In this document: one piece after another, positions 22,691-56,078 of the stretch
Layout: every line of letters begins with the position of its first letter
How positions within the stretch are numbered: the stretch's first letter is position 1
From: Blastopirellula marina DSM 3645
GTDB lineage: Bacteria; Planctomycetota; Planctomycetia; Pirellulales; Pirellulaceae
Length of the DNA: 64,000 nt
Assembly (NCBI RefSeq): GCF_000153105.1
Contig: NZ_CH672376.1
Span: forward strand, 1,252,817-1,316,816
Direction: 5' to 3'
Notes under the pieces: model-generated
The model's input: only the letters and a program-made list of their open reading frames with translations
Databases searched by the model: none
Told to the model about the DNA's origin: nothing
Made by a program: the position numbers and the translations under genes

Positions 22691-22698
22691 GTCGATTC

Positions 22699-39105: not shown

Positions 39106-41130
39106 ATGTCTTCCGAGACTCCTATTTCCGTTCGAACAGCAGATGATGCTCGCCGGCAGCTTGATTCGTTGTTAGACGAACTCGCGGATCTGGCTGAGGG
39201 GGCCTCTGCGCCGGAAGAGTTCTGGCCCGAACTGTTGTCGCGGTTAGTCTTCGCCGCTTCCGCCCACGGCGCCGCGATCTGGCAATGGGGAGGATCACGG
39301 CGGTTGCAGCCGCTGTTTGAGCAAGGCTTTGACAAAGTCTATCCCGGTCACCAGCGGGATGTGGCGATCGAAATCGACGCGTGCTCGCTAGAAGCGGCTC
39401 TCCGCAAACCGAAGGCGTCGACCATCGTTAGCGGTGGTCAGGCAGGCGGTCCCGCCCGCTTGATGTTGGTCGCCCCTTTAACCACCGCCGCGCGGGCGAC
39501 TGGTTTGTTGGTGTTGTATCAACCGGCCGATCTGCCGGCCGTGACGCAAAACGGTCATCTTCGGCTGTTGGACGCATTTGGCGAAATCGCCATCCACTTC
39601 CAAGAACGGCGTTTGCTGGCCGATTTTTCCGGCGCCGAACAAAACTGGAAGAATCAGCTTCACTTTGCCCGCGACGTTCATCGCGAATTGGACGTCAAAC
39701 AGACCTGTTACCGGATCGCCAACGACGCACGACAAGCGCTTGACGCCGATCGGGTCAGCGTCGCCGAGTGGGATGGACCTGCGGCGCAGGTCCAAGCGAT
39801 CAGCGGCGTGGACGTCCTCAACCGTCGCGCCGCTGTCGTCCGCAAGCTAGAACGCTTGGCGACCGCCGTCGCCAAACAAAGACAACCATTGATCTTTCGC
39901 GGCGATCGAGAAAATCTGCCGCCGCAAATCGAAGAGGCGCTGGTCGACTACTTGGAAGAGTCGCCTGCTCGTCTGTTGATCGCCGTGCCGCTTGTCCGCG
40001 AAACGGAGGACGCCGCCGCAGAACCTCGGACGTCGAATGACGGAATCCTGATCGGCGTGATGATTGTCGAGCAATTGGAATCGACCGAAGTAGAACGCCT
40101 GCTCGCACGCACGCGTAGTCTGGCCGAGTCGGCGACTTTGGCTCTGGCCAACGCGCAGCGCTACGAGCGACTTCCGCTTCGCGGCGTCATGCAACTGATC
40201 GGTACGACGCTCGCCCAATTCGGTTGGCGCAAACTATCGCGAACGATGCGCTACGTGCTGCCGGTGCTATTAGCGCTATTGGCGACCTGGTGGATTCCGG
40301 CGCCGTTTGAAATCGACGTCCGCGGGCAATTGCAGCCGGAGGTCGAACGGCAACTGTTCGCACCGCTCGACGGTTATGTCGATGAGATTCTGGTGAAACA
40401 TGGCGAGCTGGTCGCCGCCGGCCAGGTGGTCGCGACGTTGCGTTCGCCTGACTTGGAACTGAGACAAACCGAAACGGCGGGGCTGCTTTCCGCCGCCCAG
40501 TCTGAGCTGGATGCGGTGCGCGTCGAACGAACGCAAAACGTTCGTCGCGATGACGATCGTCGCAACAGTCGCAGCGCCGATCGCGACAAGCTTTCGGCCG
40601 ACGAGATTCGCCTTACCCGGCGGATCGCTAACCTGCAAGAACAACTGCTGCTGCTGGAAGCGCAAGGGAAAGCGTTGACGCTAGTCGCGCCTGTCGCCGG
40701 CCAAATCTTAAGCTGGGATATCGCAGAGACGTTGCAGTCTCGGCCGGTTTCTCGGGGAGACTCGTTGCTGAAAGTTGCCGAAGTCGACGGTCCCTGGGTG
40801 CTGAAATTAGAAGCCGCCGATCGTCGCACCAAACATATTTTAAACGCTCAGGCCGCAGCCGACGAACCGCTGCCGATCACGTTTCACTTGGTGAGCGAGC
40901 CCGGCGTCAAGCATCCCGCGACGTTGGCCGAGATTTCGCAGGTCATCGAAGTTGGAACCGAGACCGACGAGCCGGCGGCGCTGCTGACGGCTCACTTCGA
41001 CAAAGCGGAAGTCGATTTTCTGCGCCCCGGCGTGACGGTTGCGGGACGCGTCAACTGCGGCACGCGCAGTTTGGCTTATGTCTGGACGCACGAACTGTTC
41101 GACGCGGTTCGCCGCCGCCTTTTCTGGTAA
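39106..41130 (+). CDS. GAF-domain / HlyD-like membrane fusion protein
   Basis: A 674-residue fusion. Residues 20-170 and 185-355 look like two GAF-type domains (for example VHRELDVKQTCYRIANDARQ and LDADRVSVAEW), cytoplasmic small-molecule or redox sensors. One membrane helix at 382-400 (MRYVLPVLLALLATWWIPAP) leads to a periplasmic adaptor: FEIDVRGQLQPEVERQLFAP then LDGYVDEILVKHGELVAAGQ, the biotinyl-lipoyl hinge, a coiled coil (445-530), VAPVAGQILSW (second lipoyl half) and a beta-barrel. HlyD proteins bridge inner-membrane transporters to TolC. It is the first of three genes (9-bp and 3-bp gaps) with a second HlyD and an M50 protease, so they form an operon. Sensor input on a fusion protein is unusual. 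Confidence 0.8.
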   Translation: MSSETPISVRTADDARRQLDSLLDELADLAEGASAPEEFWPELLSRLVFAASAHGAAIWQWGGSRRLQPLFEQGFDKVYPGHQRDVAIEIDACSLEAALRKPKASTIVSGGQAGGPARLMLVAPLTTAARATGLLVLYQPADLPAVTQNGHLRLLDAFGEIAIHFQERRLLADFSGAEQNWKNQLHFARDVHRELDVKQTCYRIANDARQALDADRVSVAEWDGPAAQVQAISGVDVLNRRAAVVRKLERLATAVAKQRQPLIFRGDRENLPPQIEEALVDYLEESPARLLIAVPLVRETEDAAAEPRTSNDGILIGVMIVEQLESTEVERLLARTRSLAESATLALANAQRYERLPLRGVMQLIGTTLAQFGWRKLSRTMRYVLPVLLALLATWWIPAPFEIDVRGQLQPEVERQLFAPLDGYVDEILVKHGELVAAGQVVATLRSPDLELRQTETAGLLSAAQSELDAVRVERTQNVRRDDDRRNSRSADRDKLSADEIRLTRRIANLQEQLLLLEAQGKALTLVAPVAGQILSWDIAETLQSRPVSRGDSLLKVAEVDGPWVLKLEAADRRTKHILNAQAAADEPLPITFHLVSEPGVKHPATLAEISQVIEVGTETDEPAALLTAHFDKAEVDFLRPGVTVAGRVNCGTRSLAYVWTHELFDAVRRRLFW

Positions 41131-41139
41131 CGAAGCCCT

Positions 41140-42060
41140 ATGAAGCGATTGTTCTCGATGACGTTCTGCTTGGCGGCGCTAGCCGTATCGTCGGCCAACG
41201 CAGACGACATACCGGTCAGTGCGACGCTGCTCAAAATTATTGAAACGGTCGAAGTTCCGGCTCAGCAGTCGGGCGCACTGGAGAAAGTCAACGTCCATGA
41301 AGGCTCGCTCGTTGAGCGAGGAGAGGTGATCGCCAACGTCGCCGCCAAAGAGATGGAGTTGGAGCTGAGCGTCAAACGCTCCGAACAAGCGATCGCCCAA
41401 CGCGAAGCGACGAACGACGTTAATATTCGCTTTTCCCGCAAATCATTGGAGGTTTCTCAGTCCGAGCTGCAACGAGCGCTCGACGCGATCGCGACCTTTC
41501 CGAACGCCGTTACCGATACCGAACTCGATCGCTTGCGACTGTTGGTCGAGAAGAATCGCCTGGAGATTGAACAGTCGAGCGAACAGCAGGCAATCGCCAA
41601 GCTGACCGCCGAATTGAAATCAGCCGAAGCGGAGATTACCGCCGAGAAATTGGCCAAGCATCAGATCGCCGCGCCGATCGAAGGGATGGTAGTTCGCGTC
41701 TTTCGTCGCGCCGGCGAATGGGTCGACATCGCCGATCCGGTCGTCAAGATCGTACGGATCGATCGACTACGAGCCGAAGGATTCGTACGGAGTGAAGAAG
41801 CGGCGCTGGGGCTGCAAGGTCGCTCGGCGACCGTTCGCGTGACGCTGCCGCGCAGCGCAGAGTTGGTAGCGCCCGGCAAGGTGACCTTTGTCGATCCCGA
41901 AGTCGACCCGGTCAGCGGCGACGTACGCGTTTGGGTAGAGATCGAGAATGTCGACTTAAAACTTCGTCCCGGGTTGCGAGTCGAGATGTCGATCTCCAAC
42001 GCGGCGGTGACCGACAACACCGACGATCAGGCGGCCGAAGAGGTCGCAGTGGGAAGCTAA
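41140..42060 (+). CDS. Periplasmic HlyD-family adaptor
   Basis: A 306-residue exported adaptor. MKRLFSMTFCLAALAVSSAN is a signal peptide (cleavage after ANA). The mature protein has VEVPAQQSGALEKVNVHEGS (first lipoyl half), a long coiled-coil hairpin (about 60-165) and IAAPIEGMVVRVFRRAGEW (second half), then a beta-barrel with VRVTLPRSAELVAPGKVTFV. It lacks a membrane helix, so it is periplasmic, probably held by partner proteins. It starts 9 bp after the GAF-HlyD gene and ends 3 bp before the M50 gene; all three are expected to be made together. RND-type adaptors have the same fold, but no RND pump is nearby. Confidence 0.85.
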   Translation: MKRLFSMTFCLAALAVSSANADDIPVSATLLKIIETVEVPAQQSGALEKVNVHEGSLVERGEVIANVAAKEMELELSVKRSEQAIAQREATNDVNIRFSRKSLEVSQSELQRALDAIATFPNAVTDTELDRLRLLVEKNRLEIEQSSEQQAIAKLTAELKSAEAEITAEKLAKHQIAAPIEGMVVRVFRRAGEWVDIADPVVKIVRIDRLRAEGFVRSEEAALGLQGRSATVRVTLPRSAELVAPGKVTFVDPEVDPVSGDVRVWVEIENVDLKLRPGLRVEMSISNAAVTDNTDDQAAEEVAVGS

Positions 42061-42063
42061 GCC

Positions 42064-44250
42064 GTGGCCGCATCGCTGCAAGTTCGCGTTCGCCCCGATC
42101 TGAAGATCGTTCGTCAGCAGGGGACGTTAGAGCCGCGGTACGTAGTGAAGGACCCTGTCGCGCTGCGCTATTTCTACTTTGGCGAACACGAGATGTTCAT
42201 CATGCGGCGTCTGAATGGTCAGATGTCGGTCGCCGAAATTCAAACGGCGTACCAAGAAGAATATGCTCCCCTGAAGATTCGCCCGATCGAGATCACCTCG
42301 TTCTGTCACTCGCTGCATTCGCGTGGGTTGGCGATCGGCGGCGTGACCGGCGAATCGCAGCAACTACTGCAGCGAGCCGATCAGCAACGACTTTGGCGCT
42401 GGTCGACGACGCCGCTCTCGATTCTCTCGATTCGCTTACCAGGCGTCGATCTCGATCAAACGCTGACGGCGGTCGCTCCCTACTTCGCGTGGCTCTTTCA
42501 ACGAACGACGGTCGCGTTGGTCTTGAGCTTCGCAAGCGTGCTGATGTTGCTGGGGCTGTTGCATGCCGAGGAGATCTTCGACCGGATGCCGAGTGCGCAG
42601 TCGCTATTGCAGGGTGAAAATCTGCTGTGGATGACGCTCGCGCTGGCGCTGGTCAAAATTCTGCATGAGCTGGGACACGGACTGGCCTGTAAGCATTTTG
42701 GCGGCGAATGTCATCAGATCGGCGTCATGCTGTTGGCGTTTGTCCCTTGTCTCTACTGCGATGTATCGGATGCTTGGCTGCTGCCGGAGCGTAAAAAGCG
42801 AATGTTCGTCTCGGCGGCGGGAATGTACGTCGAGCTGATTATCGCTTCGCTCTGCGCGGTGCTGTGGTACTTCAGTGAGCCGGGGATCGTGCAGTCGATC
42901 TGCTTGAGCGTGATGTTGATCGCCGGCGTCAGCACGGTGCTAGTCAACGGCAATCCGTTGATGCGCTACGATGGATATTATTTGTTCGCCGATTGGGTTG
43001 ACGTGCCGAATTTGTCGCAACAAGCGAGCGAAGCGTTGCAACGCCCGCTGGCGCACTTTTTCACACGCCGCGCAACCAGTGACATCCGGCTCGACGCAAG
43101 TCCGGCGTTCCTGCGAACCTATGCGGTGCTGGCGCTCGCCTATCGCACGATGGTGATCGGAGTTCTGCTCTGGTTCGTCTATAAAATGTTAAAAGCGAAC
43201 GACATGGCGCCGCTGGGCGATGCGGTCGTGATGCTGGTGCTCGCCGGGTTGCTGTTGCAGCCGGCGATTGGTTTAGCGAGGTGGTGGAAACGTCCGATGG
43301 CGATGCGTGAACTTCGAGGAAAACGTTTCGCGGCGGCGGTAGTTGTCGTCGGTCTATTGCTGCTGGGGATGCTGCAAATCCGTTGGGCGGCGCGCGTGCA
43401 AGCGCCGATCTTGGCCCAGTTGGCCGATTCGCAAACGATTTATGTTCCGGTCGAAGGTCGCATCGAGTCGACGGTCGCAGCGGGTGAAAGAGTCGTCGCC
43501 GGCGCGGCGTTGGCTAAACTATTGAACGAGGAGATCGAACTGCGGCGCGTCGAGTTAACCGGCGATCTGGACGAGCAGCGACAGCATGTCGAGAACCTGC
43601 GTCGGCAGTTGAACAATGATCCGACCGCCGCGGCGCAAATTCCTGCGGCCGCCGCGGTGCTGACCGATTTAGAGCGGCAATTGGAGGTGGTGAATCGAGA
43701 CGTCGAGCGGCTGACCATTCGAGCGCCCAGCGATGGGATCGTCTTTCCCCCTCCACTACGCGTAGAACAACCTAGTAGCGATCGCCAGCTTCCCTCGTGG
43801 AGCGGAACGCCGCTGGATCTGACGAATCGCGGAGCGCTGCTTCGCCGCGGCGAACCGCTGGCGATCGTCGCCGCGACCAATCGGATCGAGGCGCAACTGC
43901 TCGTCCATCAGCGAGATGTCGATCTGATCGCCGCAGGAGACGCGGTCGAACTGCTATTTGACGGACTCTCAGGCAGTACGATCCGGGGACGAATCGTTGA
44001 GATCTCGCGGGCCGAACTGCTCGCCGCTCCGCGCAATCTGGCCCAAGGCGCCGAGGTGGCGATCCAGCAGGGAGAATCCGGCGAATTGGCGCTGGTCGAG
44101 CGAACCTATCAAGCGACGGTCGAATTGGATTCGCTGCCGGCGACTCTTTTGCCGGGAACTCGCGGCAAAGCGATCGTCCTGGGACGCTCGCTCTCTGTGG
44201 GAGAGCGGATCTCTCGGTGGATCAGCGGCAACTTTCGTTTTGAACTGTAG
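42064..44250 (+). CDS. PqqD-like / M50 metalloprotease / HlyD-like fusion membrane protein
   Basis: A 728-residue protein from a GTG start 3 bp after the HlyD gene. Residues 1-95 resemble a PqqD/RRE winged helix: RPDLKIV, RYVVKDPVALRYFYFGEHEM, IMRRLNGQMSVAEIQ and FCHSLHSRGLAI. The membrane part has about eight helices with the site-2-protease zinc motif HELGH (201-205) and the third-ligand motif NGNPLMRYDG (295-304), so the protease is intact. Residues about 430-728 are a HlyD-like periplasmic region: IYVPVEGRIESTVAAGERVV, a coiled coil (495-570), IRAPSDGIVFPPPL and a beta-barrel. Such 'peptide zinc metalloprotease' proteins occur beside HlyD/TolC in cyanobacteria and planctomycetes. Here it lies upstream of a giant LEPR-XLL protein, its likely substrate. 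Confidence 0.85.
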   Translation: MAASLQVRVRPDLKIVRQQGTLEPRYVVKDPVALRYFYFGEHEMFIMRRLNGQMSVAEIQTAYQEEYAPLKIRPIEITSFCHSLHSRGLAIGGVTGESQQLLQRADQQRLWRWSTTPLSILSIRLPGVDLDQTLTAVAPYFAWLFQRTTVALVLSFASVLMLLGLLHAEEIFDRMPSAQSLLQGENLLWMTLALALVKILHELGHGLACKHFGGECHQIGVMLLAFVPCLYCDVSDAWLLPERKKRMFVSAAGMYVELIIASLCAVLWYFSEPGIVQSICLSVMLIAGVSTVLVNGNPLMRYDGYYLFADWVDVPNLSQQASEALQRPLAHFFTRRATSDIRLDASPAFLRTYAVLALAYRTMVIGVLLWFVYKMLKANDMAPLGDAVVMLVLAGLLLQPAIGLARWWKRPMAMRELRGKRFAAAVVVVGLLLLGMLQIRWAARVQAPILAQLADSQTIYVPVEGRIESTVAAGERVVAGAALAKLLNEEIELRRVELTGDLDEQRQHVENLRRQLNNDPTAAAQIPAAAAVLTDLERQLEVVNRDVERLTIRAPSDGIVFPPPLRVEQPSSDRQLPSWSGTPLDLTNRGALLRRGEPLAIVAATNRIEAQLLVHQRDVDLIAAGDAVELLFDGLSGSTIRGRIVEISRAELLAAPRNLAQGAEVAIQQGESGELALVERTYQATVELDSLPATLLPGTRGKAIVLGRSLSVGERISRWISGNFRFEL

Positions 44251-44267
44251 CGCCGCCTGCATCCGCT

Positions 44268-45053
44268 TTACGGCAGGACGAACGCGGCCCCGGTATAGAA
44301 CGTTCCCATGTAGGCGGCTCCACGCCAGCTCCAGGGGAGTCCGTGTCGATCGTGCGGATTGTTGTCGCCCGGGCGATAGTGACCCAGCGTATAGATCCGT
44401 TCGCACGGCGGATTAACGCCGATCTTGTAGGGCAAGATCAGCGTGTTGGCGAAGAAGTGAGCCGCCGAGACCGCCGGTTGTACGACGCGATGGCGATTGC
44501 CATAACGCTCTAAGTTCACTTCTTCGAAGTAAAGCGGGCGATGATAGAAAGCAGGAGCTTCCCACATCGCAACCGACGGCGCCCAAGGGCGCTGCCTGCC
44601 GTAGATCGTGTCGACTTCGGGATATTCGGCGAAGAGTTCCTGGGCGACGTTGGCCGGCAGTTTGACTTGATGCTCGGCGTTGGTCTGGATTTCAGGATCG
44701 CGGTAGCCGGTGTTAATCGTGTAGGAGTCGGCCGGTCGGCGCTCTAGCAAAGTTTGCAATTGCTCAGGCGTCATGCTGCTGAAGGGATCGTGACCGCTCG
44801 CGACAGAGCGATAGAGTTCGCCGTAGCGTTTGCCGGGGGGAAGGATGTCATCCTCGGAGATGATTTCCCCTTGGGGAACGATTTCATCCGGCGGAGGATC
44901 GACCGGTCCAAACTCAGGCTCCGCCGTTTCAACGAGCACGACGGGCCGAATCCCATACGGGGTCTCCGCAGGCTCAGCACGGACCTCCCACGAAGCAAGA
45001 ATGGCTCCACAGAGGGGGAATGCGATCAGGCAGAGGCTATTAATTAGACGCAT
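44268..45053 (-). CDS. Secreted planctomycete-type protein, unknown
   Basis: A 261-residue protein with a signal peptide (MRLINSLCLIAFPLCGAILA, cleavage near VRAEP), then an acidic, proline-rich stretch (PVDPPPDEIVPQGEIISEDD). The C-terminal half holds PAFYHRPLYFEEVNLERYGN, SAAHFFANTLILPYKIGVNP and RIYTLGHYRPGDNNP. I have seen this C-terminal pattern in hypothetical planctomycete secreted proteins; no function is known. It points against the flanking export genes and converges with the M50 gene (18 bp apart), so it has its own promoter, upstream in the 45054-45431 gap. Confidence 0.65.
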   Translation of the reverse strand: MRLINSLCLIAFPLCGAILASWEVRAEPAETPYGIRPVVLVETAEPEFGPVDPPPDEIVPQGEIISEDDILPPGKRYGELYRSVASGHDPFSSMTPEQLQTLLERRPADSYTINTGYRDPEIQTNAEHQVKLPANVAQELFAEYPEVDTIYGRQRPWAPSVAMWEAPAFYHRPLYFEEVNLERYGNRHRVVQPAVSAAHFFANTLILPYKIGVNPPCERIYTLGHYRPGDNNPHDRHGLPWSWRGAAYMGTFYTGAAFVLP

Positions 45054-45277
45054 CCTTCGTCTTCACCATGCGAGTGCGAACGGGCCAAATGTCTCCGTTT
45101 CCTCTCCATCGGCGTTTACCGGGAATTTAGTCCAGTCGACTGGGGGACAGACGGTAAAGCTTCCGCATATTTGGCAAAATCGGCGCCATCGGAGAAGTTG
45201 GGTGGGTAGGATTGTGGGGGTTTGCGTGGGTTGGGGAGTTGAAAGCCGCAGGAATGAGGAAATGCCGTCGCGATTCG
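45054..45277. other. Divergent intergenic region before the giant gene
   Basis: Part of a 378-bp gap separating the minus-strand secreted protein from the giant gene. No gene is supported here: an open frame on the minus strand extends into the giant gene and has no recognisable motif. Confidence 0.4.
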
Positions 45278-45306
45278 TTGACATCCTCGGGATTCGTAAC
45301 TTGAAT
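45278..45306 (+). promoter_or_regulatory. Candidate promoter of the giant LEPR-XLL gene
   Basis: TTGACA (45278-45283), a 17-bp spacer and TTGAAT (45301-45306, four of six to the -10 consensus), about 125 bp before the giant gene's ATG. The -35 is perfect, the -10 weak, which might fit activator-dependent expression. Confidence 0.5.
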
Positions 45307-45431
45307 GGGAAAATACGTATCTTTTGACGGCTAGAGGGGTTATGCGCACATGACGCGTTCCTCGCTGGCGACGAACCTCTTGCCGCGCGCCGCCGAGCGC
45401 CAGGCGAGCGACCGACCAAGGGCGCTACCGA

Positions 45432-48400
45432 ATGAACCGAAAGCGAATCTTTTCGCGTTGGCTGAAGCGAAAAACGCGCCGTGCGGATGGGCCCGCTCCT
45501 CGTTTTTTCGATCAGTTCGACACCAAGCTCCGCTTTCGAGAGTTGGAACCTCGCGTCGTTTTGAATGCCGATGCGAACCTTGTCGGTGACGTTCTTCAAA
45601 TTGAAGTCGACGACGCCAACGACGCGGTCGAAGTCCGGTTCTACGACGATGGCGGCACCAGCTATTACCAAGTCACCGATGGCAAAGGGTTTGACCAGAA
45701 ATGGGATGCGAGCCTTGTTGCCGGAATCACGGTCAGCGACACTTCGCCAGGAGTCGAAGACGGGCAACAGGTGACGCTCCTCGATGATCATGCGACGCTG
45801 GATCCTTCGCTCGGTAAAGGGTTGATCACCAAGGGCGTCGAAGCCGTTTCTTTCCAAGGATCCGCACCTGGCGATTCGTGGACCTTCGCAACCGAAGTTT
45901 CGATTACGGCCGACACCCACGCCGCGCAGGTCAATCAGTCCGGCGCTGATTTGCTGACCCCGGCGACGACGCCGGTCAGCTTCGCCGCGATCAACGGCGC
46001 CAAGATCGACGTCACTTTGAACTCGACGGACAATGAGATCTCGCTGTTGAACGTCAGCCAAGGGGGCGACGTAAAGGTCGCGACGGCGGATGATATTTCG
46101 CTGGATCAGGTCAAAACGCAAGCTCTCGAACTGGTTTCGACTAAATCGATCACCAACCAGGTGAACGCCGCGGTCGATGTGACCAACAACGCCAGCTTTA
46201 AGGGCGCTAGCGTGACTTTGGGAGACCAAGCCGGCGACGATCTGTCATTCGGCTCGCTGACGTTCGATGGAGCCATGGTATCGATCGCGGAAGATGCCGA
46301 TACGCTGCTGTCTGGGAAGAACGCAGCAACATCGCTCGATCTGAGTTCGACCGGGAAGATCGAAAACGCCGTCGGTACCGAACTGAAGGTGACCAACAAC
46401 GCTTCGTTCGCAGCCGCCGACGGCATGGTGAACGCCAACAATCAGATCACGCTCGGTCAGGATGGGAGCGACGCTTTTGAGTTTGGTTCGCTGACGTTCA
46501 ATACCCTGGACGAGGTGAAGATCGCCGAGGCCGGCGATACGCAGTTGATCGCCGCGAGTTCGGCGGGCGCTCTCGTCTTGAATTCGACCGGCAAAATCGA
46601 AAACGTCGTCGGCGCGGAACTAAAGGTCACTGGCAACGCTTCGTTCATCGCCGCCGACGGTCTGGCGAACGGCAACAATCAGATCACGCTCGGTCAGGAT
46701 GGAAGCGACGTCTTTGAATTTGGTTCGCTGACGTTCAATACGGTTGACGCCGTGAACATCGCTGAGATCGGCGATACCTTGTTGAGTGGGGTTAGCAAGG
46801 CTGATTCGCTGATATTGGACTCGACCGGTTCGATTCAGAATGAAATGAAGGCCGAACTGGTCGTCGCGCAGAACGCCAAGTTCGTCGCCGGTAGTTCCAT
46901 TGCGCTGGGCAATGAAACGAATGACTTGATTCAGCTTGGTTCGCTGACGTTTGTCTCCAATTTTGGCGTATCGCTCCGCGAAGATGACGGTACGAAGCTT
47001 CGTGGGGTCAGTAAAGCAGCGACGCTTTATCTGCATTCGACCGGTTCAATTACCAATGAGGCCAACGCCGAGCTGAAGGTCAATTTCGTCGCTCAGTTCG
47101 CCGCCGACGATGGGGATGCGAAGAACGCCAACAATCAAATTACGCTAGGGGATCAGGCGGACGACAAGTTTCAATTCGCCTCCCTGAACTTTAATACCGT
47201 GGACAGCGTCTCGATCGCCGAAGATAGCGACATGCTGCTAGAAGCGACCAATACGGCGGGTTCACTCAGGCTCGCGTCGACCGGTAAGATCGAGAACAAA
47301 GCGAACGCAACGCTGAACGCGACCGGCGACGCGGTGCTGATCGCGGGAACCGATATCTCGATCGGTAATCAGTCGAAGGATCTCATCACTTTCGGTTCGC
47401 TCAACTTCAGTGGCGTCGCAGTCACGATCCAAGAAAACAACGATACGTTGCTGACTGGGAAGAGCGCGGCAACATCGCTCGATCTGAGTTCGACCGGCAA
47501 AATCGAAAATGCTGTCGGCACGGAACTGAAGGTCACTGGCAACGCTTCGTTTCTCGCCACGGATAGTCTGGCGAACGCCAACAATCAGATCACGCTCGGC
47601 CAGGATGGGAGCGACGCTTTTGAGTTTGGCGCTCTGACGTTCAATACGCTCGATGAGGTGAAAATCTCCGAGTCGGGCGATACGCAGTTGATCAATGCAA
47701 ATTCGGCAGGCGCTCTCGTCTTGAGTTCGACCGGCAAAATCGAAAATGCTGTCGGCACCGAGCTAAAGGTCACTGGCAACGCTTCGTTCATCGCCACGGA
47801 TAGTCTGGCGAACGGCAACAATCAGATCACGCTCGGTCAGGATGGGAGCGACGCTTTTGAGTTTGGCACACTGACGTTTAACACGCTCGACGCGGTGAAG
47901 ATCACCGAGATCAGTGATACGACACTTTCTGGCATGAGCACGGCTGGTTCGCTGGAACTCAAGTCAACCGGATCGATGACCGATGCTTCGATGACTTCGA
48001 TCATTGTTACCGGCGCGGCGACATGGACCGCGAAGAACGCCATCACGCTGGCGGACGAGGCTAGTAATACGCTGCAAATCAACGGCCTGGCGACGTTGAA
48101 GGCGGGTGCATCGATCGACATCGGCCCAGCCGGGACGGCGAATTTTGGGTTGCTGAATTTTCAGGGCGACGCGGTCACGATCCAGGAGGATAGCGACACC
48201 ATTCTCTCCGGTTCAAGCACGGCAAATTCTCTGGGTCTCACGTCGAGCGACTCGATTACCGACGCGAGCGGCGCTTCGGTCGTAGTTAGTGGACCAGCGA
48301 CGTTCGACGCGGGGACGACGATCAATCTGGCGAACGAAGGAACGGATCTGCTGCAGGTCACTGGCCTGGCAACGTTTAAAGCAGTCGGTTCGATCGACAT

Positions 48401-51400
48401 CGGTCCCGCGGGCACAGCAAACTTTGGCCTGCTGAATTTTCAGGGGGACGTGGTCACGATCCAAGAGGATAGCGACACCATTCTCTCTGGTTCAAGCACG
48501 GCGAACTCGCTGGATCTCACCTCCAAGGATTCAATCACCGACGCGACCGGCGCTTCGGTCGTAGTTAGCGGTTCGGCGACGTTTGATGCAGGCACAACGA
48601 TCAACCTGGCCAACGAAGCCGGCGACATCTTGCAGGTTAATGACCTGGCGACATTCATCGCAGTCGGCTCGATTGACATCGGCCCCGCGGGCACAGCGAA
48701 TTTCGGGCTGCTGAATTTTCAAGGGGATGCGGTCACGATCCAGGAGGATAGCGACACCATTCTCTCCGGTTCGAGCACGGCGAACTCGCTGGACTTAACC
48801 TCTGAGGATTCGATCACCGACGCGACCGGGGCTTCGATTGTAGTCAGCGGACCAGCGACGTTTGATGTAGGCACAACGATCAACCTGGCCAATGAAGCCG
48901 GCGACATCTTGCAGGTTAATGACCTGGCGACATTCATCGCAGTCGGCTCGATTGACATCGGCCCCGCGGGCATAGCGAATTTTGGGTTGCTGAATTTCCA
49001 AGGGGATGCGGTCACGATCCAGGAGGATAGCGACACCATTCTCTCTGGTTCAAGCACGGCGAATTCTCTGGGGCTCACGTCGAGCGACTCGATTACCGAC
49101 GCGAGCGGCGCTTCGGTCGTAGTCAGCGGACCAGCGACGTTTGATGCAGGCACAACGATCAACCTGGCCAATGAAGCCGGCGACATCTTGCAAGTAGACG
49201 ACTTAGCGACTTTCATCGCAGTCGGCTCGATCGACATCGGCCCCGCGGGCACAGCGAATTTTGGGTTGCTGAATTTCCAAGGGGATGTGGTCACGATCCA
49301 AGAGGATAGCGACACCATTCTCTCCGGTTCGAGTACGGCGAACTCGCTGGATCTCACATCGAGTGATTCGATCACGGATGCGACCGGCGCTTCGGTCGTA
49401 GTTAGTGGACCAGCGACGTTCGATGCGGGGACGACGATCAATCTGGCGAACGAAGGAACGGATCTGCTGCAGGTCACTGGCCTGGCAACGTTTAAAGCAG
49501 TCGGTTCGATCGACATCGGTCCCGCGGGCACAGCAAACTTTGGCCTGCTGAATTTTCAGGGGGACGTGGTCACGATCCAAGAGGATAGCGACACCATTCT
49601 CTCCGGTTCGAACACGGCGAATTCTCTGGATCTCGTATCGAGTGATTCGATCACGGATGCGACCGGCGCTTCGATTGTAGTCAGCGGACCAGCGACGTTC
49701 GATGCAAGCACGACGATCGACCTCGCGAATGAAGGAACGGATCTGCTGCAGGTAAATGGCCTGGCGACGTTTAAAGCAGTCGGTTCGATCGACATCGGCC
49801 CCGCAGGCACAGCGAATTTTGGGTTGCTGAATTTTCAAGGGGACGTGGTCACGGTCCAAGAGGATAGCGACACCATTCTCTCTGGTTCAAGCACGGCGAA
49901 TTCTCTGGATCTCGTATCGAGTGATTCGATCACGGATGCGACCGGCGCTTCGATTGTAGTCAGCGGACCAGCGACGTTCGATGCAAGCACCACGATCGAC
50001 CTCGCGAATGAAGGAACGGATCTGCTGCAGGTAAATGGCCTGGCGACGTTTAAAGCAGTCGGTTCGATCGACATCGGCCCCGCAGGCACAGCGAATTTCG
50101 GGTTGCTGAATTTCCAAGGGGATGTGGTCACGATCCAGGAGGATAGCGACACCGTTCTCTCCGGTTCGAGCACGGCGAACTCTCTGGGTCTCACATCCAG
50201 TGATTCAATCGCCGACGCGACCGGCGCTTCGATCGTAGTTAGCGGTTCGGCGACGTTCGACGCGGGCACGACGATCAACCTGGCGAACGAAGCCGGCGAC
50301 ATCTTGCAGGTCAATGACCTGACGACATTCATCGCGGCCGGCTCGATCGACATCGGCCCCGCAGGCACAGCGAATTTTGGGTTGCTGAATTTCCAAGGGG
50401 ACGCGGTCACGATCCAGGAGGATAGCGACACCATTCTCTCCGGTTCGAGTACGGCGAACTCGCTGGATCTCACATCGAGTGATTCGATCACGGATGCGAC
50501 CGGCGCTTCGATCGTAGTCAGCGGTCCAGCGACGTTCGACGCGGGCACAACGATCAACCTGGCCAATGAAGCCGGCGACATCTTGCAAGTAGACGACTTA
50601 GCGACATTCATCGCGGCCGGCTCGATCGACATCGGCCCCGCAGGCACAGCGAATTTTGGCTTGCTGAATTTCCAAGGGGACGTGGTCACGATCCAGGAGG
50701 ATAGCGACACCGTTCTCTCCGGTTCGAGCACGGCCAACTCGCTGGACTTAACCTCTGAGGATTCGATCACCGACGCGACTGGGGCTTCGATCGTAGTTAG
50801 CGGTTCGGCGACGTTCGACGCGGGCACAACGATCAACCTAGCGAATGAGGGGACGGATCTGCTGCAGGTGGATGGCCTGGCGACGTTCATCTCGAGCGGC
50901 GGCCAGACGATTGACGTTGGCGTCGACAATGGTATTAATCGTGGGGATGACAGCGGCGCTACGGTCTTGCTCGGGCAAGTGACGTTCGTCAGCGACAACG
51001 GCTTGAATGTGCGTGATTCGGTCACGATTCGCGAAGATTCCGACGTGGAAGTAACGGGAGTCAATCTGGCGGCCGATTTATTTTTGGCGGCGGACGGATC
51101 GATCATTCAAGTCGAAGATGGGAACCCGCTGACGGCGGATCGGATTGATCTGGATGTGAACGGCGATGGTAGCGTGGTTGGCGACGCCCTGTTTGAAGCG
51201 GCCGTTGGCGCTGTCATCCATCTTTTTGGCGACACTTCGGCCAATCCGCTAGGTGAGCCGGTCTCGACGTTTTTGGCGGATAACAAAATCGCGGGCGTCG
51301 AATTTCGCGCCCCAGGCGGCGGCGATCTGTCCGATATCTACTATCGCAATATCAGCACGGCGGCGCTCTTTCCGACCTTGCCAGGCACGGTGACTGGGAA

Positions 51401-54400
51401 CCTGAGGATCCAGTTTGCGGCGGCGGATATGCTGATTGATGACGATCTCAATGTCGGCGCTCAGTTGATTCTCGAAGCGCTCGGAACTTTGAACAGCATT
51501 GCGGATATGGATGGCGTTTCGATCGTTGCGCAAGACGCAATCATCGTCGCCGACGGCACGATCACGCTGGCCGACGAGGCGAACAATGAACTGAAGATCG
51601 GCGCCGCGGCGGATGACAACGCGTTCTTCTATTCGCGTGCCGGCAAAGCGATTGTCATCGGCGCCAGCGATGCGAATGGAACCGCCAGCGGAGCGACGGT
51701 CGAACTCTCCTCGCTGACTTTCCATAGCAGTGATCGAATGACGGCCCGCGGCGATATCGTTATTCACGAGACCGACTCGACGCTGTTGGCTTCACGACGG
51801 TTCGATCTTGACGGTTCGCCGGTGATCTTCGTGAACCGGGGCGACTCGTTGGTGTTGATCACCGAAGGCGATTTGACCGACGCCGATTCGGACGGCTCGC
51901 TCAACGGAAATATTTTGCGAGCCAGCGTCGATGTCGCCAACAGTTCGGTGATGATTGCGGACGGAGAAATTCATCTGGCCGATCAAGCGACGATCATGGT
52001 GGATGGCGTCGACCTGGGCGTCTACTCGCTCGGCTTGAATGACGGCGCCTTGGATAACGATATCGCATTGTTCGTGACGACCGCAGGTCAAGATATTCGC
52101 GTGGGCGTGTCCGACATGTTGGCGACCGACAGCGGCGCGTCGGTGAAGGTCGATGGCCTGACTTTCCACACGGTGGGCGGAACGGGGAGCGTCTATCTGC
52201 AAACCGACAGCGATACCCTTCTGGCCAACCGTAAATTCGCCGGCACCACTTATGAGAATCTCGCCGACAATCTGGTGTTGCGTACGACGGGACTGATCGG
52301 TTCGGCCGGAAGCGACAAGACCTCGGTTATCGGTGACGCACGTTTTCTCGCGAGCGGCGACATTAAGTTAGTGAACTCGGATGCCGACGCTCAATTGCTG
52401 GTCGGCGACAACGCATTCTTCCAGTCTGGCGGATCCGTCACGGTAGGCGTAGGGACGAGCGGCGTCAATTTGGGCACGTTGACGTTTAATGCGAAGGCCG
52501 CGGTGAGAATCACCGAAACGAACGCGAGCGGCGGCTTTGTCGCGCCCGCGGCCGGAATGACGATCATCGACACCAACTTTGCCGGCGGCAGCACGAATTA
52601 CGCTTCCTCGGCGACGCTCCTCTCTGACAGTTTTATTGCCGACGCTTTGGCGACGACCATTGAAGTCGATACGTTTGCTGCGCTGACGGCCGCTACGACG
52701 ATCACGCTAGGTGACAACGTCGGCGACAAGCTAGTCGTGAAGGGCGGCGCATCGTTCACTTCGACCGGCGGAGAGCAGATTGACATCGGCGTAACGCCAA
52801 CAGCGAAACTTGCGACCGATCGCGGGGCCGATAGCGGCGCGACCGTCGAACTAGGCGCGCTGCGGTTCGAGAGCAGCGGCGGTGACGTGACCGTCCATGA
52901 GGATGGGGGGATGTTGCTGGCCGGGACGAGTCAAGCCGATACGCTTGTCTTGGTCGCGAACCAGGGGGATCTTCGCGACGCTGTCGAGACCAAGGTCACG
53001 GTGACCGATTTCGCGGAGTTTCATGCCGAACTGGATGTGGTGCTCGCCGATCAGAAGACCGACGAATTGACCGTCATCGGCAACGCACTGTTCACTTCCG
53101 GCGACACCAACTACTTTGCAACGCCCGGCGTTGTGCGCGAGATTAGCGTCGGCGTGATCGATGTCGATGCAGCGAGTAACCCGAATGCTTCTGGACGGGG
53201 AGCCGAAAGCGGCGCGATGGTGTCGCTGGGAAGTGTGACGTTTTTTGGTTTCGCCAATCTGGATGCCGGCGTCCATGCGACGATTCGCGAAGACGCGTCG
53301 ATGGTGATCACCCACGCCGAGCGTCGCGAAGGGGGCGGTTCGACCGAGATCACCAACTTTGCTCAGACGGCGATGCTGATTGCCGACAACGCCGCAAATA
53401 ATGCGACGATCACCGATTCGCAAATCGACGGGGTCGGCGGTACTTCGATCGAAGCGACCGACTACGCCCTATTTCAGGCCAACTCGCACATTGTGTTAGC
53501 GAATGAATCGGCGGACGTGTTTAGTATCGAAGGAAACGCCTACTTTGCGTCGCAGCTGGGTGATATCGATCTGGGCGTTCTGGCCAAGAGCGTCAACGCG
53601 CTCGATCGGGGCGCTGACAGCGGCGCCAACGTACAACTGGGGACGCTCACATTTCAGGCGACCCTGGGTGACGTCACGATTCATGAAGATAGCGATACGA
53701 CGCTGGCCCAGGGAAACCCCTTGCGAGGAACCGGTAGTACGGCCAATTCGCTGGTGCTTGAGAGCAGCGGATCGATCGACGATACGGCTGGGACCAGTCT
53801 GGTCGTCGCCCAACGGATTGCGGCGCCGGTCGCCGGTTCGGCCGAGGATCAGGTCGACGGCTTAGCGATCTTGCGAGCCGGCGCCGATGTGCATCTGGGA
53901 GACTCGGCCGGGGACGCGATTGATCTGCGGCGGTTGTCGCTGACGGTCGGCGGCGACGTTTCGATCACGGAAACTTCGGCCAGCGACGGCGGTTTATTGT
54001 TGGTCGATGGTTCGCAAACCGCCGGAACGATGGCGATCAGGTCCGACGGCCATCTCGTCCAAATCAACGACGAGCGAACCGGCGCCGCGTTTAGCATGAT
54101 CGTCGCCGATCAAGCGTTGTTGGTCGCCGGCGGAGCGATCGTGATGACCAACGTCGATTTCCAACAGGCGACAATGCAGGCCCACGGAACTTTGCAGGTG
54201 ACGCCTGGCGCTGCGCTGAATACGACTGATGCGGCGAACGGCGGATTGCTCGGTCGCCGTACGACCGATGCGATTTCGAGCTACTTGCCCAACTCGAACG
54301 ACGACACGTTCGCGCCGAAGGGACCCAGTACGACGCCAGACACGCAAACCAATATGGATGGCGCCTATTCGGTGGTGTTGTCGGACGTGAACAGTCTGAC

Positions 54401-56078
54401 GATTGCGTTGGTGACGGACGCATTAGGAACCATCGCGGCCGATCCGGTGACGCTGGCGTTTGAAGTCGCCAATAGCGATGACTTGGCGATCGCCGATTTT
54501 ACACCGGCGTTTTCAGCGGTTGGAGTTGCGGCGGGGCACATGTTTGTACAGACAGTCGGCGACTTGACCTTTGCCGAGCAAGCGGCCGATCCGTCGGACA
54601 ACGTCGTCGTGTACGGCGAAGTGCGGATGACCGGCGGTGGGACCACTAACAATGCGTTCACCGCATTGGCCGGCGGCACGCTGGACATCGCGGGAGACTC
54701 GATGTTGGTGATGCGTTCGGCGGCCGATTTTTATCTGTTGAACGACGCGAATAACACGTTGACTCCTTTTGTCGGCGGCGGGTTGGCCGACTCGATCGGC
54801 TCGTTGGGCGCCGTCAGTTCGTTTGCAACTTTCGTGGACGTGGATACTCAGCCTGGCTTTATCGAAGTCGGCGAGTTTGGCCCCATCTATCAGCGAACGC
54901 CGCAGAGCCCTGATCCCAACGCATCGACTTCGCAAATCGCCAAAGGGCTTGGCAATGGGCAGTTTCAAGTCAACGCGACGATCACGAAGCTGGGAGATTC
55001 GTCGACGCTGATTGTCGACGGGAAACCGGTCTATGTCGAACAGAACTCGCGCGTCTTGGTCGATTGGGGTGATGGTTCGCAAGACATCTATCTCTTCCAG
55101 GATCCGATCAACGGCGCCCAGACGTTGCAGCATACCTACAACTCTGGTTTTGCGTTGACCGAACAGCGCGCGACGGTGACTATTACTGCATTCAACGATC
55201 CGCAGATCAATCTGTATGACAACGTCGTGGATGCGACGACGTTCCGCGATTTGAACTCGGTCACGGATACCTTTGAAGTCATCATCCCGGTCGGCGTGCA
55301 ATATGCGCCCGAGTCGCCGCCGTTCACGCAGCCTGTCGCTCCCGAAATTGCGCCGGCCGCGCTGTTGCCCGAGACTGTCTTCGCTGTGACGACGAACTCC
55401 ACCTCCAGTTCGGATGGAAGCTCGCTAAATCAAGTCCAAGAAGTCGTAGTCGTGATCGTCAACGCTTTGGATGAAGAGGTCGGGGAACGTGTGGTGCTGC
55501 AAGGTTTCAGCACGATCGAAGAGGTCAAGCAATACATTCAAGAGAGTACGCGCTTTTTGCCTGGCCGATACAAGGTTTCGATTCTGCTGGCCGGGCAACA
55601 AGAGCCGGACGTCTATTACTTTGATAAGGTCGCTGCCGACGCGCCGGATGGCGCTAGCAGCGGAGCCGACGGTGGATTGGAACGGCATGTGCAATCCGCG
55701 TCGCCAGAGCTGCCGGCGGATGCGTCGGCCGAGCAAGTCTGGGCGCTGCAATACGAAAAATGGTTCGACGCCGACGACACTTCACCGGAAGAAGAAAATT
55801 CGCCAGCTGCAGATGACGCTTGGACTCCCGGCCTCTCCGCCGCATGGCAAAGCGAAAAGCTTGCAGAGCCGCGTGACGAACATTCTTCGCTGCGTCGCCG
55901 CTGGATGCTGCCGGGGGGGATTGGCGGCGCGCTGATGATGGCCGCATTCGCACTCAATCCGCAAGCCGATCGTGAGCGAGCCGACGCGGTCGACGAAGCG
56001 CTTGAGCGGGAGACTCAGCAGCCGAGCGAGCCAAAGCAAAGTCTTTCGCGTCGCCGCTGGCGACGACGCGTTCGATAA
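45432..56078 (+). CDS. Giant LEPR-XLL surface protein, 3548 residues
   Basis: The largest gene in the window. A basic N-terminus (MNRKRIFSRWLKRKTRR) leads to the LEPR-XLL motif RFRELEPRVVLNADANL at about 34-50, diagnostic of a class of giant bacterial exported proteins; no ordinary Sec signal is visible. Residues 260-1820 are 70-93-residue beta-rich repeats. Residues 1820-3050 hold looser modules with SGA(T/N)V(E/Q)LG(A/T)LTF. An EF-hand-like DVNGDGS occurs near 1907. Around 3180-3290 is a PKD-like piece (VLVDWGDGSQDIYL, LQHTY). The C-terminus ends in a short hydrophobic helix (GGIGGALMMAAFAL) and an Arg-rich tail, suggesting a membrane anchor. Likely an adhesin or surface-layer protein exported by the upstream HlyD/M50 set. 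No enzyme domain is seen. Confidence 0.88.
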   Translation: MNRKRIFSRWLKRKTRRADGPAPRFFDQFDTKLRFRELEPRVVLNADANLVGDVLQIEVDDANDAVEVRFYDDGGTSYYQVTDGKGFDQKWDASLVAGITVSDTSPGVEDGQQVTLLDDHATLDPSLGKGLITKGVEAVSFQGSAPGDSWTFATEVSITADTHAAQVNQSGADLLTPATTPVSFAAINGAKIDVTLNSTDNEISLLNVSQGGDVKVATADDISLDQVKTQALELVSTKSITNQVNAAVDVTNNASFKGASVTLGDQAGDDLSFGSLTFDGAMVSIAEDADTLLSGKNAATSLDLSSTGKIENAVGTELKVTNNASFAAADGMVNANNQITLGQDGSDAFEFGSLTFNTLDEVKIAEAGDTQLIAASSAGALVLNSTGKIENVVGAELKVTGNASFIAADGLANGNNQITLGQDGSDVFEFGSLTFNTVDAVNIAEIGDTLLSGVSKADSLILDSTGSIQNEMKAELVVAQNAKFVAGSSIALGNETNDLIQLGSLTFVSNFGVSLREDDGTKLRGVSKAATLYLHSTGSITNEANAELKVNFVAQFAADDGDAKNANNQITLGDQADDKFQFASLNFNTVDSVSIAEDSDMLLEATNTAGSLRLASTGKIENKANATLNATGDAVLIAGTDISIGNQSKDLITFGSLNFSGVAVTIQENNDTLLTGKSAATSLDLSSTGKIENAVGTELKVTGNASFLATDSLANANNQITLGQDGSDAFEFGALTFNTLDEVKISESGDTQLINANSAGALVLSSTGKIENAVGTELKVTGNASFIATDSLANGNNQITLGQDGSDAFEFGTLTFNTLDAVKITEISDTTLSGMSTAGSLELKSTGSMTDASMTSIIVTGAATWTAKNAITLADEASNTLQINGLATLKAGASIDIGPAGTANFGLLNFQGDAVTIQEDSDTILSGSSTANSLGLTSSDSITDASGASVVVSGPATFDAGTTINLANEGTDLLQVTGLATFKAVGSIDIGPAGTANFGLLNFQGDVVTIQEDSDTILSGSSTANSLDLTSKDSITDATGASVVVSGSATFDAGTTINLANEAGDILQVNDLATFIAVGSIDIGPAGTANFGLLNFQGDAVTIQEDSDTILSGSSTANSLDLTSEDSITDATGASIVVSGPATFDVGTTINLANEAGDILQVNDLATFIAVGSIDIGPAGIANFGLLNFQGDAVTIQEDSDTILSGSSTANSLGLTSSDSITDASGASVVVSGPATFDAGTTINLANEAGDILQVDDLATFIAVGSIDIGPAGTANFGLLNFQGDVVTIQEDSDTILSGSSTANSLDLTSSDSITDATGASVVVSGPATFDAGTTINLANEGTDLLQVTGLATFKAVGSIDIGPAGTANFGLLNFQGDVVTIQEDSDTILSGSNTANSLDLVSSDSITDATGASIVVSGPATFDASTTIDLANEGTDLLQVNGLATFKAVGSIDIGPAGTANFGLLNFQGDVVTVQEDSDTILSGSSTANSLDLVSSDSITDATGASIVVSGPATFDASTTIDLANEGTDLLQVNGLATFKAVGSIDIGPAGTANFGLLNFQGDVVTIQEDSDTVLSGSSTANSLGLTSSDSIADATGASIVVSGSATFDAGTTINLANEAGDILQVNDLTTFIAAGSIDIGPAGTANFGLLNFQGDAVTIQEDSDTILSGSSTANSLDLTSSDSITDATGASIVVSGPATFDAGTTINLANEAGDILQVDDLATFIAAGSIDIGPAGTANFGLLNFQGDVVTIQEDSDTVLSGSSTANSLDLTSEDSITDATGASIVVSGSATFDAGTTINLANEGTDLLQVDGLATFISSGGQTIDVGVDNGINRGDDSGATVLLGQVTFVSDNGLNVRDSVTIREDSDVEVTGVNLAADLFLAADGSIIQVEDGNPLTADRIDLDVNGDGSVVGDALFEAAVGAVIHLFGDTSANPLGEPVSTFLADNKIAGVEFRAPGGGDLSDIYYRNISTAALFPTLPGTVTGNLRIQFAAADMLIDDDLNVGAQLILEALGTLNSIADMDGVSIVAQDAIIVADGTITLADEANNELKIGAAADDNAFFYSRAGKAIVIGASDANGTASGATVELSSLTFHSSDRMTARGDIVIHETDSTLLASRRFDLDGSPVIFVNRGDSLVLITEGDLTDADSDGSLNGNILRASVDVANSSVMIADGEIHLADQATIMVDGVDLGVYSLGLNDGALDNDIALFVTTAGQDIRVGVSDMLATDSGASVKVDGLTFHTVGGTGSVYLQTDSDTLLANRKFAGTTYENLADNLVLRTTGLIGSAGSDKTSVIGDARFLASGDIKLVNSDADAQLLVGDNAFFQSGGSVTVGVGTSGVNLGTLTFNAKAAVRITETNASGGFVAPAAGMTIIDTNFAGGSTNYASSATLLSDSFIADALATTIEVDTFAALTAATTITLGDNVGDKLVVKGGASFTSTGGEQIDIGVTPTAKLATDRGADSGATVELGALRFESSGGDVTVHEDGGMLLAGTSQADTLVLVANQGDLRDAVETKVTVTDFAEFHAELDVVLADQKTDELTVIGNALFTSGDTNYFATPGVVREISVGVIDVDAASNPNASGRGAESGAMVSLGSVTFFGFANLDAGVHATIREDASMVITHAERREGGGSTEITNFAQTAMLIADNAANNATITDSQIDGVGGTSIEATDYALFQANSHIVLANESADVFSIEGNAYFASQLGDIDLGVLAKSVNALDRGADSGANVQLGTLTFQATLGDVTIHEDSDTTLAQGNPLRGTGSTANSLVLESSGSIDDTAGTSLVVAQRIAAPVAGSAEDQVDGLAILRAGADVHLGDSAGDAIDLRRLSLTVGGDVSITETSASDGGLLLVDGSQTAGTMAIRSDGHLVQINDERTGAAFSMIVADQALLVAGGAIVMTNVDFQQATMQAHGTLQVTPGAALNTTDAANGGLLGRRTTDAISSYLPNSNDDTFAPKGPSTTPDTQTNMDGAYSVVLSDVNSLTIALVTDALGTIAADPVTLAFEVANSDDLAIADFTPAFSAVGVAAGHMFVQTVGDLTFAEQAADPSDNVVVYGEVRMTGGGTTNNAFTALAGGTLDIAGDSMLVMRSAADFYLLNDANNTLTPFVGGGLADSIGSLGAVSSFATFVDVDTQPGFIEVGEFGPIYQRTPQSPDPNASTSQIAKGLGNGQFQVNATITKLGDSSTLIVDGKPVYVEQNSRVLVDWGDGSQDIYLFQDPINGAQTLQHTYNSGFALTEQRATVTITAFNDPQINLYDNVVDATTFRDLNSVTDTFEVIIPVGVQYAPESPPFTQPVAPEIAPAALLPETVFAVTTNSTSSSDGSSLNQVQEVVVVIVNALDEEVGERVVLQGFSTIEEVKQYIQESTRFLPGRYKVSILLAGQQEPDVYYFDKVAADAPDGASSGADGGLERHVQSASPELPADASAEQVWALQYEKWFDADDTSPEEENSPAADDAWTPGLSAAWQSEKLAEPRDEHSSLRRRWMLPGGIGGALMMAAFALNPQADRERADAVDEALERETQQPSEPKQSLSRRRWRRRVR
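46215..48060 (+). repeat. Degenerate 70-79-residue repeats of the giant protein
   Basis: About eight copies of a 70-79-residue unit (210-237 bp). The common pattern is ITLGQDGSDAFEFGSLTFNT, then V.I.E..DT.L, a T-A/G-x-L-x-L-x-STGKIEN block and ELKVTGNASF. Spacing between the best copies is 237 bp (46437 to 46674, 47580 to 47817). Copies range from near-identical to strongly diverged. They share the core of the 93-residue repeats that follow. Confidence 0.85.
48108..50897 (+). repeat. Ten tandem 279-bp repeats (93 residues each) in the giant gene
   Basis: Ten in-register copies of a 279-bp unit. Each encodes SIDIGPAGTANFGLLNFQGD, VTIQEDSDTILSGSSTANSL, TSSDSITDATGAS and TFDAGTTINLANE. Two sub-types alternate in the end of the unit (NEGTDLLQV.GLATFKA and NEAGDILQV.DLATFIA) in the order G A A A G G G A A G. 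Copies 6 and 7 are almost identical over more than 150 bases, indicating recent homogenisation or expansion. Confidence 0.93.

Follow-up and report, generated by a model that had tools for sequence, protein, structure and literature searches.

Modules that combine HlyD-type adaptors with an M50-family membrane protein and a secondary SecA-type ATPase have been described in hosts that include Planctomycetes and Proteobacteria, with Methylobacterium extorquens AM1 as one named host (Kamneva, Poudel and Ward, 2015; PMC4452313). In that work SecA was proposed to act as the ATPase and the M50 protein as the pore, and the broader role of the module was called "completely unknown". The accessible text of the article names no cargo, and a term search of it gives 0 occurrences of "LEPR" and "PqqD". 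A comparable protease is found in the biosynthesis of daptides, where a recognition element of the kind that binds leaders of ribosomally synthesized and post-translationally modified peptides (RiPPs), the RiPP recognition element (RRE), is fused N-terminally to a site-2 protease, and where the leader carries the motif ELExMEAP (PMC10036551). According to the accessible part of that article, a modification for which MpaB needs its RRE is lost when Leu(-7) or Met(-4) of the leader is replaced by alanine, and the leader is taken off by MpaP, an intramembrane peptidase that relies on an RRE (PMC10036551). Here we analyze a stretch of 64,000 nucleotides from Blastopirellula marina DSM 3645 (contig NZ_CH672376.1, positions 1,252,817 to 1,316,816), which we call the window and in which such a module lies close to the gene for a giant protein with an N-terminal LEPR motif. 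We consider it probable that this cluster is a type-I-like exporter, free of an ABC transporter, for proteins with LEPR leaders, here the giant encoded from 45432, and that the module's M50-HlyD fusion protein binds the leader and cleaves near it. An original prediction, made from the letters of the window, had put forward the export system itself as a proposal; the exporter itself is not new, having been published before as a predicted module. The cargo assignment and the reading of the fusion as an RRE-guided protease are new as far as the open-licence PMC literature was searched. In the accessible text of that literature we found no paper on the export of LEPR-XLL proteins, which are named in PMC10868602 and PMC9611531.

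The genes and protein regions on which this reading depends are as follows.

33048-35270, + strand: TolC-family outer-membrane efflux lipoprotein (OEP), candidate outer channel
39106-41130, + strand: GAF-GAF-HlyD adaptor, 674 residues (Pfam GAF, GAF_3 and HlyD_3)
41140-42060, + strand: HlyD/RND-type periplasmic adaptor, 306 residues, with a signal-peptide-like N terminus (Pfam HlyD_D23 and HlyD_3)
42064-44250, + strand: fusion of RRE, M50 intramembrane protease and HlyD (M50-HlyD), 728 residues (Pfam Peptidase_M50 and HlyD_3)
42064-42333, + strand: predicted RRE (PqqD-like) domain of M50-HlyD, about residues 1-90, boundary approximate (AlphaFold2 and Foldseek)
42664-42678, + strand: HExxH zinc motif of M50-HlyD, residues 201-205
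42946-42975, + strand: second catalytic motif of M50-HlyD, N295..P298..D303-G304
43378-44247, + strand: HlyD/membrane-fusion half of M50-HlyD with a short alpha-hairpin, about residues 439-728, boundary approximate (Foldseek and profiles)
45432-56078, + strand: giant acidic surface-type protein with DUF5649 repeats, 3,548 residues (10,647 bp), proposed cargo
45432-45554, + strand: proposed LEPR leader of the giant, residues 1-41, basic, without a hydrophobic segment, ending in LEPR (sequence and NF012209)
48129-50921, + strand: most regular block of 93-residue repeats in the giant, boundaries approximate and set by eye (sequence and autocorrelation)
55893-56075, + strand: conserved C terminus of the giant, residues 3488-3548, a hydrophobic stretch and an Arg-rich tail found in 4/4 genus members

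On re-reading the window, the positions and strands of the open reading frames (ORFs), the gaps of 9 bp between GAF-HlyD and HlyD and of 3 bp between HlyD and M50-HlyD, and the Pfam domains all agreed with the three-gene set of the original prediction. The RND_mfp model gives the 306-residue adaptor 94.6 bits, with a cut-off of 94.9. The ORF at 33048, predicted to be a TolC lipoprotein, matches Pfam OEP (8e-18) and, read from 33048, has a lipobox-like LNGC at its N terminus, while the TolC model TIGR01844 scores it at 29.7 bits, under its cut-off.

Pfam finds no match in the N-terminal region of M50-HlyD, which the original prediction had called PqqD-like. An AlphaFold2 model of residues 1-110 (pLDDT 82.5; our AlphaFold2 models were built on 6 sequences) nevertheless bears that name out, with top Foldseek matches to 6jx3_B (E = 8e-4), 5v1v_A (E = 1e-3), 5v1u, and 5sxy (E = 0.01), all at probability 1.00. 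The first three are structures of lasso-peptide B1 proteins that include a leader peptide, and 5sxy is PqqD. The N-terminal domain of M50-HlyD is thus predicted, on the strength of the model, to have the fold of an RRE. In the protease domain that follows, H201, E202, H205, N295, P298, D303 and G304 are invariant in 19/19 aligned homologs, and M50-HlyD is therefore likely to be an active protease. Its closest NCBIfam model is daptide_HExxH (NF041824), at 154 bits and below the cut-off of 300; a search of solved structures for a relative of the M50 domain gave only 3b4r (E = 0.008). The C-terminal half matches MexA, MacA, AcrA and ZneB in Foldseek at probability 1.00 and membrane-fusion proteins in profile searches, and the whole chain, among the Foldseek matches listed, matches membrane-fusion proteins only. 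The invariant catalytic residues, the RRE-like domain and the parallel with daptides together favor the processing role that had been predicted for the M50 protein, although cleavage itself is something that we infer. The same genome encodes a further M50 protein of 944 residues (G000:C2:222896-223282; L048:7483-10317, - strand), and no neighbor of that gene in a 19-kb stretch matches the HlyD proteins of the window.

An RRE on a protease could also mean that the system matures and exports short RiPP-like precursor peptides, with no role for giants. The predicted fold fits such a system, as do the closest NCBIfam models, which are RiPP proteases of the daptide and YydH/LiaK types. However, the recurrent partner of M50-HlyD in two bacterial groups is a LEPR protein (among the ORFs screened, those of at least 90 residues), and three adaptors and an outer-membrane channel would seem to exceed what a peptide needs. 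We give this explanation very little credence.

The proposed cargo has a pI of 4.05, no cysteine, 16 stretches of DUF5649 repeats and a repeat period of 93 residues, with autocorrelation at 93, 186 and 279 residues. Its LEPR motif lies at residues 38-49 of 3,548, near the N terminus of a very large protein, and FRELEPR[VM]VL[NST]A is conserved in 4/4 members of the genus. To compare leaders, a readable sequence, starting at the first possible start codon, was obtained for 65/72 LEPR loci, with 7 missed. A hydropathy scan, which is not a signal-peptide predictor, found a hydrophobic segment upstream of the motif in 0/65 of these leaders. Counted from the first possible start, the median distance to the motif is 32 residues; the leaders are basic, with a median of 6 Lys/Arg vs 3 Asp/Glu. 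We found the core [LFIMV]-E-x-[LM]-E in 51/65 leaders vs 1/17 background regex matches, a contrast that may stem in part from the selection of the leaders by a model that possibly contains the upstream Glu. At the other end of the chain, LEPR giants from two loci in different groups (L061, ~1851, - strand; L178, ~13183, + strand) share a hydrophobic segment and, after it, the sequence LPAWxxxDPLP(I/V)L, perhaps together a membrane anchor. A common C-terminal motif for LEPR giants was dropped as a candidate, as the sequence is present in these 2 loci only.

The following sequence of events would account for these features. The giant would be made with the N terminus seen in its sequence, which lacks a Sec-like hydrophobic segment and is basic, a leader with [hydrophobic]-x-x-L-E-P-R-x-[VL]-L at its end. 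The RRE domain of M50-HlyD, its fold predicted, could bind this leader as RREs bind RiPP leaders. A SecA-type ATPase from a second copy of the cluster, in the role that Kamneva et al gave it, could drive the chain into the membrane complex. The M50 site-2 protease would then cut near the leader; when daptide and LEPR leaders are aligned on their common core, the daptide cut, placed by the residue numbers given in PMC10036551, would correspond to a position just after LEPR, where cleavage is predicted by analogy. The three adaptor-bearing proteins, whose domains are evident, may contribute their HlyD halves to a conduit through the periplasm and outer membrane, together with the TolC-like lipoprotein.

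If M50-HlyD handles LEPR proteins, the two should occur in the same genomes, and the check attached to the original prediction was their association. In a set of 246 genomes of Planctomycetota (M50-HlyD at E <= 1e-30, LEPR by NF012209 at E <= 0.05), M50-HlyD was found in 57, LEPR in 30 and both in 28. M50-HlyD is thus present in 28/30 LEPR-positive vs 29/216 LEPR-negative genomes (Fisher 8e-19) and, by family, in 17/17 LEPR-positive families vs 8/~66 others (the total of 83 families is an estimate). The association recurs in a set drawn from the class of the Granulosicoccus genome G288, which we take to belong to the Gammaproteobacteria. In these 367 genomes, with LEPR at E <= 1e-3, M50-HlyD at E <= 1e-40 and the query genomes G286 and G288 left out, M50-HlyD occurs in 26/28 LEPR-positive vs 28/339 other genomes (Fisher 1e-22). 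Up to 4 candidates per genome were scored in the Planctomycetota set and in the LssB search described below, and up to 2 in the gammaproteobacterial set, so that misses are possible. LEPR matches in open frames shorter than 600 residues were removed in one scan (129/150 kept) and where linkage was counted among the 40 genomes described below, and were retained for linkage in Gammaproteobacteria.

Gene order adds to the association in Gammaproteobacteria. A LEPR span lies <=10 kb from M50-HlyD in 20/62 loci, where 0.6 would be expected under uniform gene placement, an assumption shared by all of our expected counts; without G288, whose LEPR match lies in a frame of 77 residues, the count is 19/60. 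A gene-order survey covered 12 gammaproteobacterial and 8 Planctomycetota loci selected for adjacency, and in 8/12 of the former (L168, L169, L170, L172, L173, L174, L175 and L178) the first gene on the same strand past the exporter genes is the LEPR ORF. In Planctomycetota, LEPR occurs <=20 kb from M50-HlyD in 9/89 cases in the genome set (expected 1.5). The association that had been predicted therefore stands at the level of genomes in two groups and of gene order in Gammaproteobacteria, while local linkage in Planctomycetota is uncommon.

An LssB-type type I exporter scored above its cut-off in 0/246 genomes, including that of B. marina, and in 0 of 14 control genomes, which leaves the search with no positive control; HlyB- and PrtD-type exporters lie outside its scope. 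Weaker LssB matches occur in 3/30 LEPR-positive vs 46/216 LEPR-negative genomes and show no positive association. A mere effect of large genomes was rejected as the source of the association because this other exporter marker is unlinked to LEPR in the same 246 genomes; genome size itself was unmodelled.

These results also bear on the possibility that the giant leaves the cell by a classical type I system, with its ABC transporter encoded elsewhere, and that the cluster's part is limited to processing or regulating the giant. The giant is acidic, built of repeats and free of cysteine, and in this it resembles adhesins secreted by type I systems. A LEPR giant of Vibrio has a C terminus with RTX/serralysin domains, as stated in the accessible text of PMC10868602. 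Against such a route stand the LssB result and the ORFs of the 20 adjacency-chosen loci, many of them incomplete, none of which carries an RTX flag (>=3 GGxGxD). In the window, as the original prediction held, no ABC ATPase is found among 41 ORFs by Pfam, and no ORF of >=100 residues has a Walker A motif plus an ABC signature by regex. For this absence the Pfam scan carries more weight, because the regex overlooks some P-loops, for example in the AAA_25 ORF at 7158. We regard export of the giant by such an ABC system as improbable.

The proposed exporter would instead draw on the ATPase of the published module. Among B. marina and 39 relatives, M50-HlyD homologs are present in 39/40 genomes. 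B. marina itself has a second copy of the trio, with a SecA-like protein of 654 residues upstream on the same strand (G000:C2:2730022-2731983), and the secondary SecA_DEAD protein is thus missing from the window locus and present in the genome. SecA-like genes, chosen by hand on rank and open frame, occur in at least 38/40 genomes, and all 38 also carry M50-HlyD; 27/57 of these genes, among the matches listed, lie <=10 kb from M50-HlyD. In two Granulosicoccus loci the last 4 bases of M50-HlyD are shared with the SecA-like ORF, and all 23 gammaproteobacterial genomes with a SecA-like gene, among the matches listed, carry M50-HlyD (the gammaproteobacterial SecA counts include G288). In genomes where no SecA-like gene was picked out, the ATPase may be canonical SecA or a more diverged enzyme. 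After the second exporter copy in B. marina lies a gene for a protein of 1,140 residues (L045:6118-9540, - strand) with the LEPR-like sequence IETLEVREVFDAAG near its N terminus and sub-cut-off matches to peptidylprolyl isomerase and tandem-95 repeats; it is possibly the cargo of that copy.

Several observations weigh against a leader-guided exporter for LEPR giants, besides the 6 sequences behind the structural models and the selection of the leaders noted above. The giant, predicted to be a LEPR-XLL protein beside the exporter, does have the motif and the size, but NF012209 scores it at 15.3 bits (15.7 in another scan), below the cut-off of 17, so that by this model alone it is a near miss, and an ORF on the opposite strand (44268-45053) intervenes between it and the exporter genes. 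Its leader, FRELEPR, has Arg and not Glu at position -2, and the protein at L045:6118-9540 has a hydrophobic segment upstream of its motif if the first possible start is used. The window has no ORF with the GEGKT motif of the SecA-like proteins, and a SecA-like gene was found in at least 23/56 M50-HlyD-positive gammaproteobacterial genomes, at least 17/27 of those that also have LEPR. LEPR occurs without M50-HlyD in 2/28 gammaproteobacterial genomes at E <= 1e-3 and in 16/51 at E <= 0.05, a threshold at which 35/51 have both and several of the extra matches lie in short frames. RTX/serralysin C termini on some LEPR proteins suggest classical type I secretion in some lineages. Local linkage is also uncommon among the 40 genomes, where a LEPR span lies <=10 kb from M50-HlyD in 11/109 loci, though this exceeds the 1.4 expected.

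Unselected loci point the same way. They were taken one per genome down the M50-HlyD score list, skipping loci already fetched, and a strict LEPR-like ORF was nearby in 0/20 of those from Planctomycetota vs 1/20 control loci, although the strict regex overlooks true cases (for example L058) and 0/20 may therefore be an undercount. Of the controls, 19/20 surround canonical SecA and have no strict LEPR match; the sole match comes from L214, an atypical control located elsewhere on contig G011:C567, a contig that itself carries M50-HlyD and a SecA-like gene. General adjacency in Planctomycetota was rejected on this result, and the link there is therefore mostly genomic and not local. In another batch of 11 loci the strict regex gave 2 matches, the orthologs L045 and L052. 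With a relaxed regex, giants are flagged next to M50-HlyD in L055, L059 and L064; that regex had no control, and these were left uncounted.

The scarcity of adjacency in Planctomycetota, the 29/57 M50-HlyD genomes of that set without a LEPR match, and the published reading (PMC4452313, accessible text) would all suit a module that has an export function, in line with the proposal of Kamneva et al, and in which M50 is a pore and not a protease; LEPR giants would merely share its lineages. Invariant catalytic residues in 19/19 homologs would be unexpected of a mere pore, however, and shared lineages account poorly for an association that repeats in Gammaproteobacteria with direct gene order and that LssB, another exporter marker, does not show in the same genomes. 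We regard this pore model as unlikely, if less so than the other alternatives.

Three further genes of the cluster have products that are less directly tied to export.

36045-38780, - strand: Clp-type AAA+ ATPase, divergent from the trio (Pfam AAA_2 and ClpB_D2-small)
44268-45053, - strand: ORF of 261 residues without a Pfam match, between the exporter genes and the giant
56280-61538, + strand: Ser/Thr kinase-WD40 protein directly after the giant (Pfam Pkinase and WD40), conserved within the genus

The order OEP, AAA (opposite strand), GAF-HlyD, HlyD, M50-HlyD, ORF of 261-262 residues (opposite strand), giant and kinase-WD40 is seen in four genomes of the genus (the window, G003, G002 and G001, the HlyD position of G001 being occupied by an open frame that was unscored). 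OEP thus lies upstream of the trio in 4/4 genus genomes, and, judged by position and size, an opposite-strand ORF of 261-262 residues occupies the same spot in all four. TolC-like ORFs are sometimes found near exporter loci more widely. A Clp-type AAA+ gene also neighbors the export genes in G001, G002, G003 and G022, and the ATPase is a possible unfoldase for the cargo. Proteins resembling the kinase-WD40 protein are encoded near further M50-HlyD loci (L055 and L064).

GAF domains and site-2 proteases are common components of signaling. Together with the kinase-WD40 and FHA neighbors, they could make the cluster a device for sensing and regulated proteolysis that controls surface adhesins, with no export route. 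Membrane-fusion domains on all three proteins and the TolC-like ORFs sometimes nearby argue against this view, which we judge to be very unlikely. Elsewhere in the window are a squalene-hopene cyclase gene (22699-24774, - strand) adjoining a radical-SAM/DUF3463 ORF (21539-22726), and ORFs that include SBP_bac_10/DUF1559 with a prepilin N terminus; this family and the H-X9-DG family, which is also matched, are hallmarks of planctomycetes.

A broader and more tentative proposal, which we think could be right but do not favor, is that these clusters make up a secretion class of their own, which treats giant proteins in the manner of RiPP precursors. An RRE in a membrane-fusion protease would read the L-E-x-L-E-P-R leader, the same polypeptide would cut it in the membrane, a SecA paralog would replace the ABC pump, and export would proceed via TolC, as a general route for LEPR-XLL proteins in at least two bacterial groups. 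If LEPR proteins are indeed the cargo of this module, the large and poorly understood LEPR-XLL family would gain an export route and the module of Kamneva et al a role, both questions being answered together, and RiPP-type leader recognition would apply to certain bacterial proteins of very large size as well as to small peptides.

Among known systems, the secondary-SecA locus of Kamneva et al shares GAF-HlyD, HlyD and M50-HlyD with the window, and sometimes OEP, and like the window it lacks an ABC transporter; its SecA is encoded in the locus, whereas the SecA-like gene of B. marina sits at another, and the accessible text of PMC4452313 sees M50 as a possible pore, without a cargo. Classical type I systems (HlyB-HlyD-TolC, LapBCE/LssB) share HlyD adaptors, a TolC-like protein and giant acidic repeat cargo with the window. 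The window differs from them in having no ABC transporter, in the N-terminal leader proposed in place of a C-terminal signal, and in the fusion of a protease to an adaptor. With LEPR-XLL proteins (NF012209) the giant shares the N-terminal LEPR motif, at a score below the cut-off. Like the daptide peptidase MpaP, as presented in the accessible text of its description, M50-HlyD would have an N-terminal RRE on an intramembrane metalloprotease, and the leaders of the two systems share the core L-E-x-[ML]-E. Of the daptide-type features, the RRE fold is found in the predicted model and HExxH with a distal Asp in the sequence, while the NF041824 score falls short of its cut-off. To this arrangement the M50-HlyD system adds an HlyD half, companion adaptors and a TolC-like protein, and its proposed cargo is a giant protein and not a short peptide.

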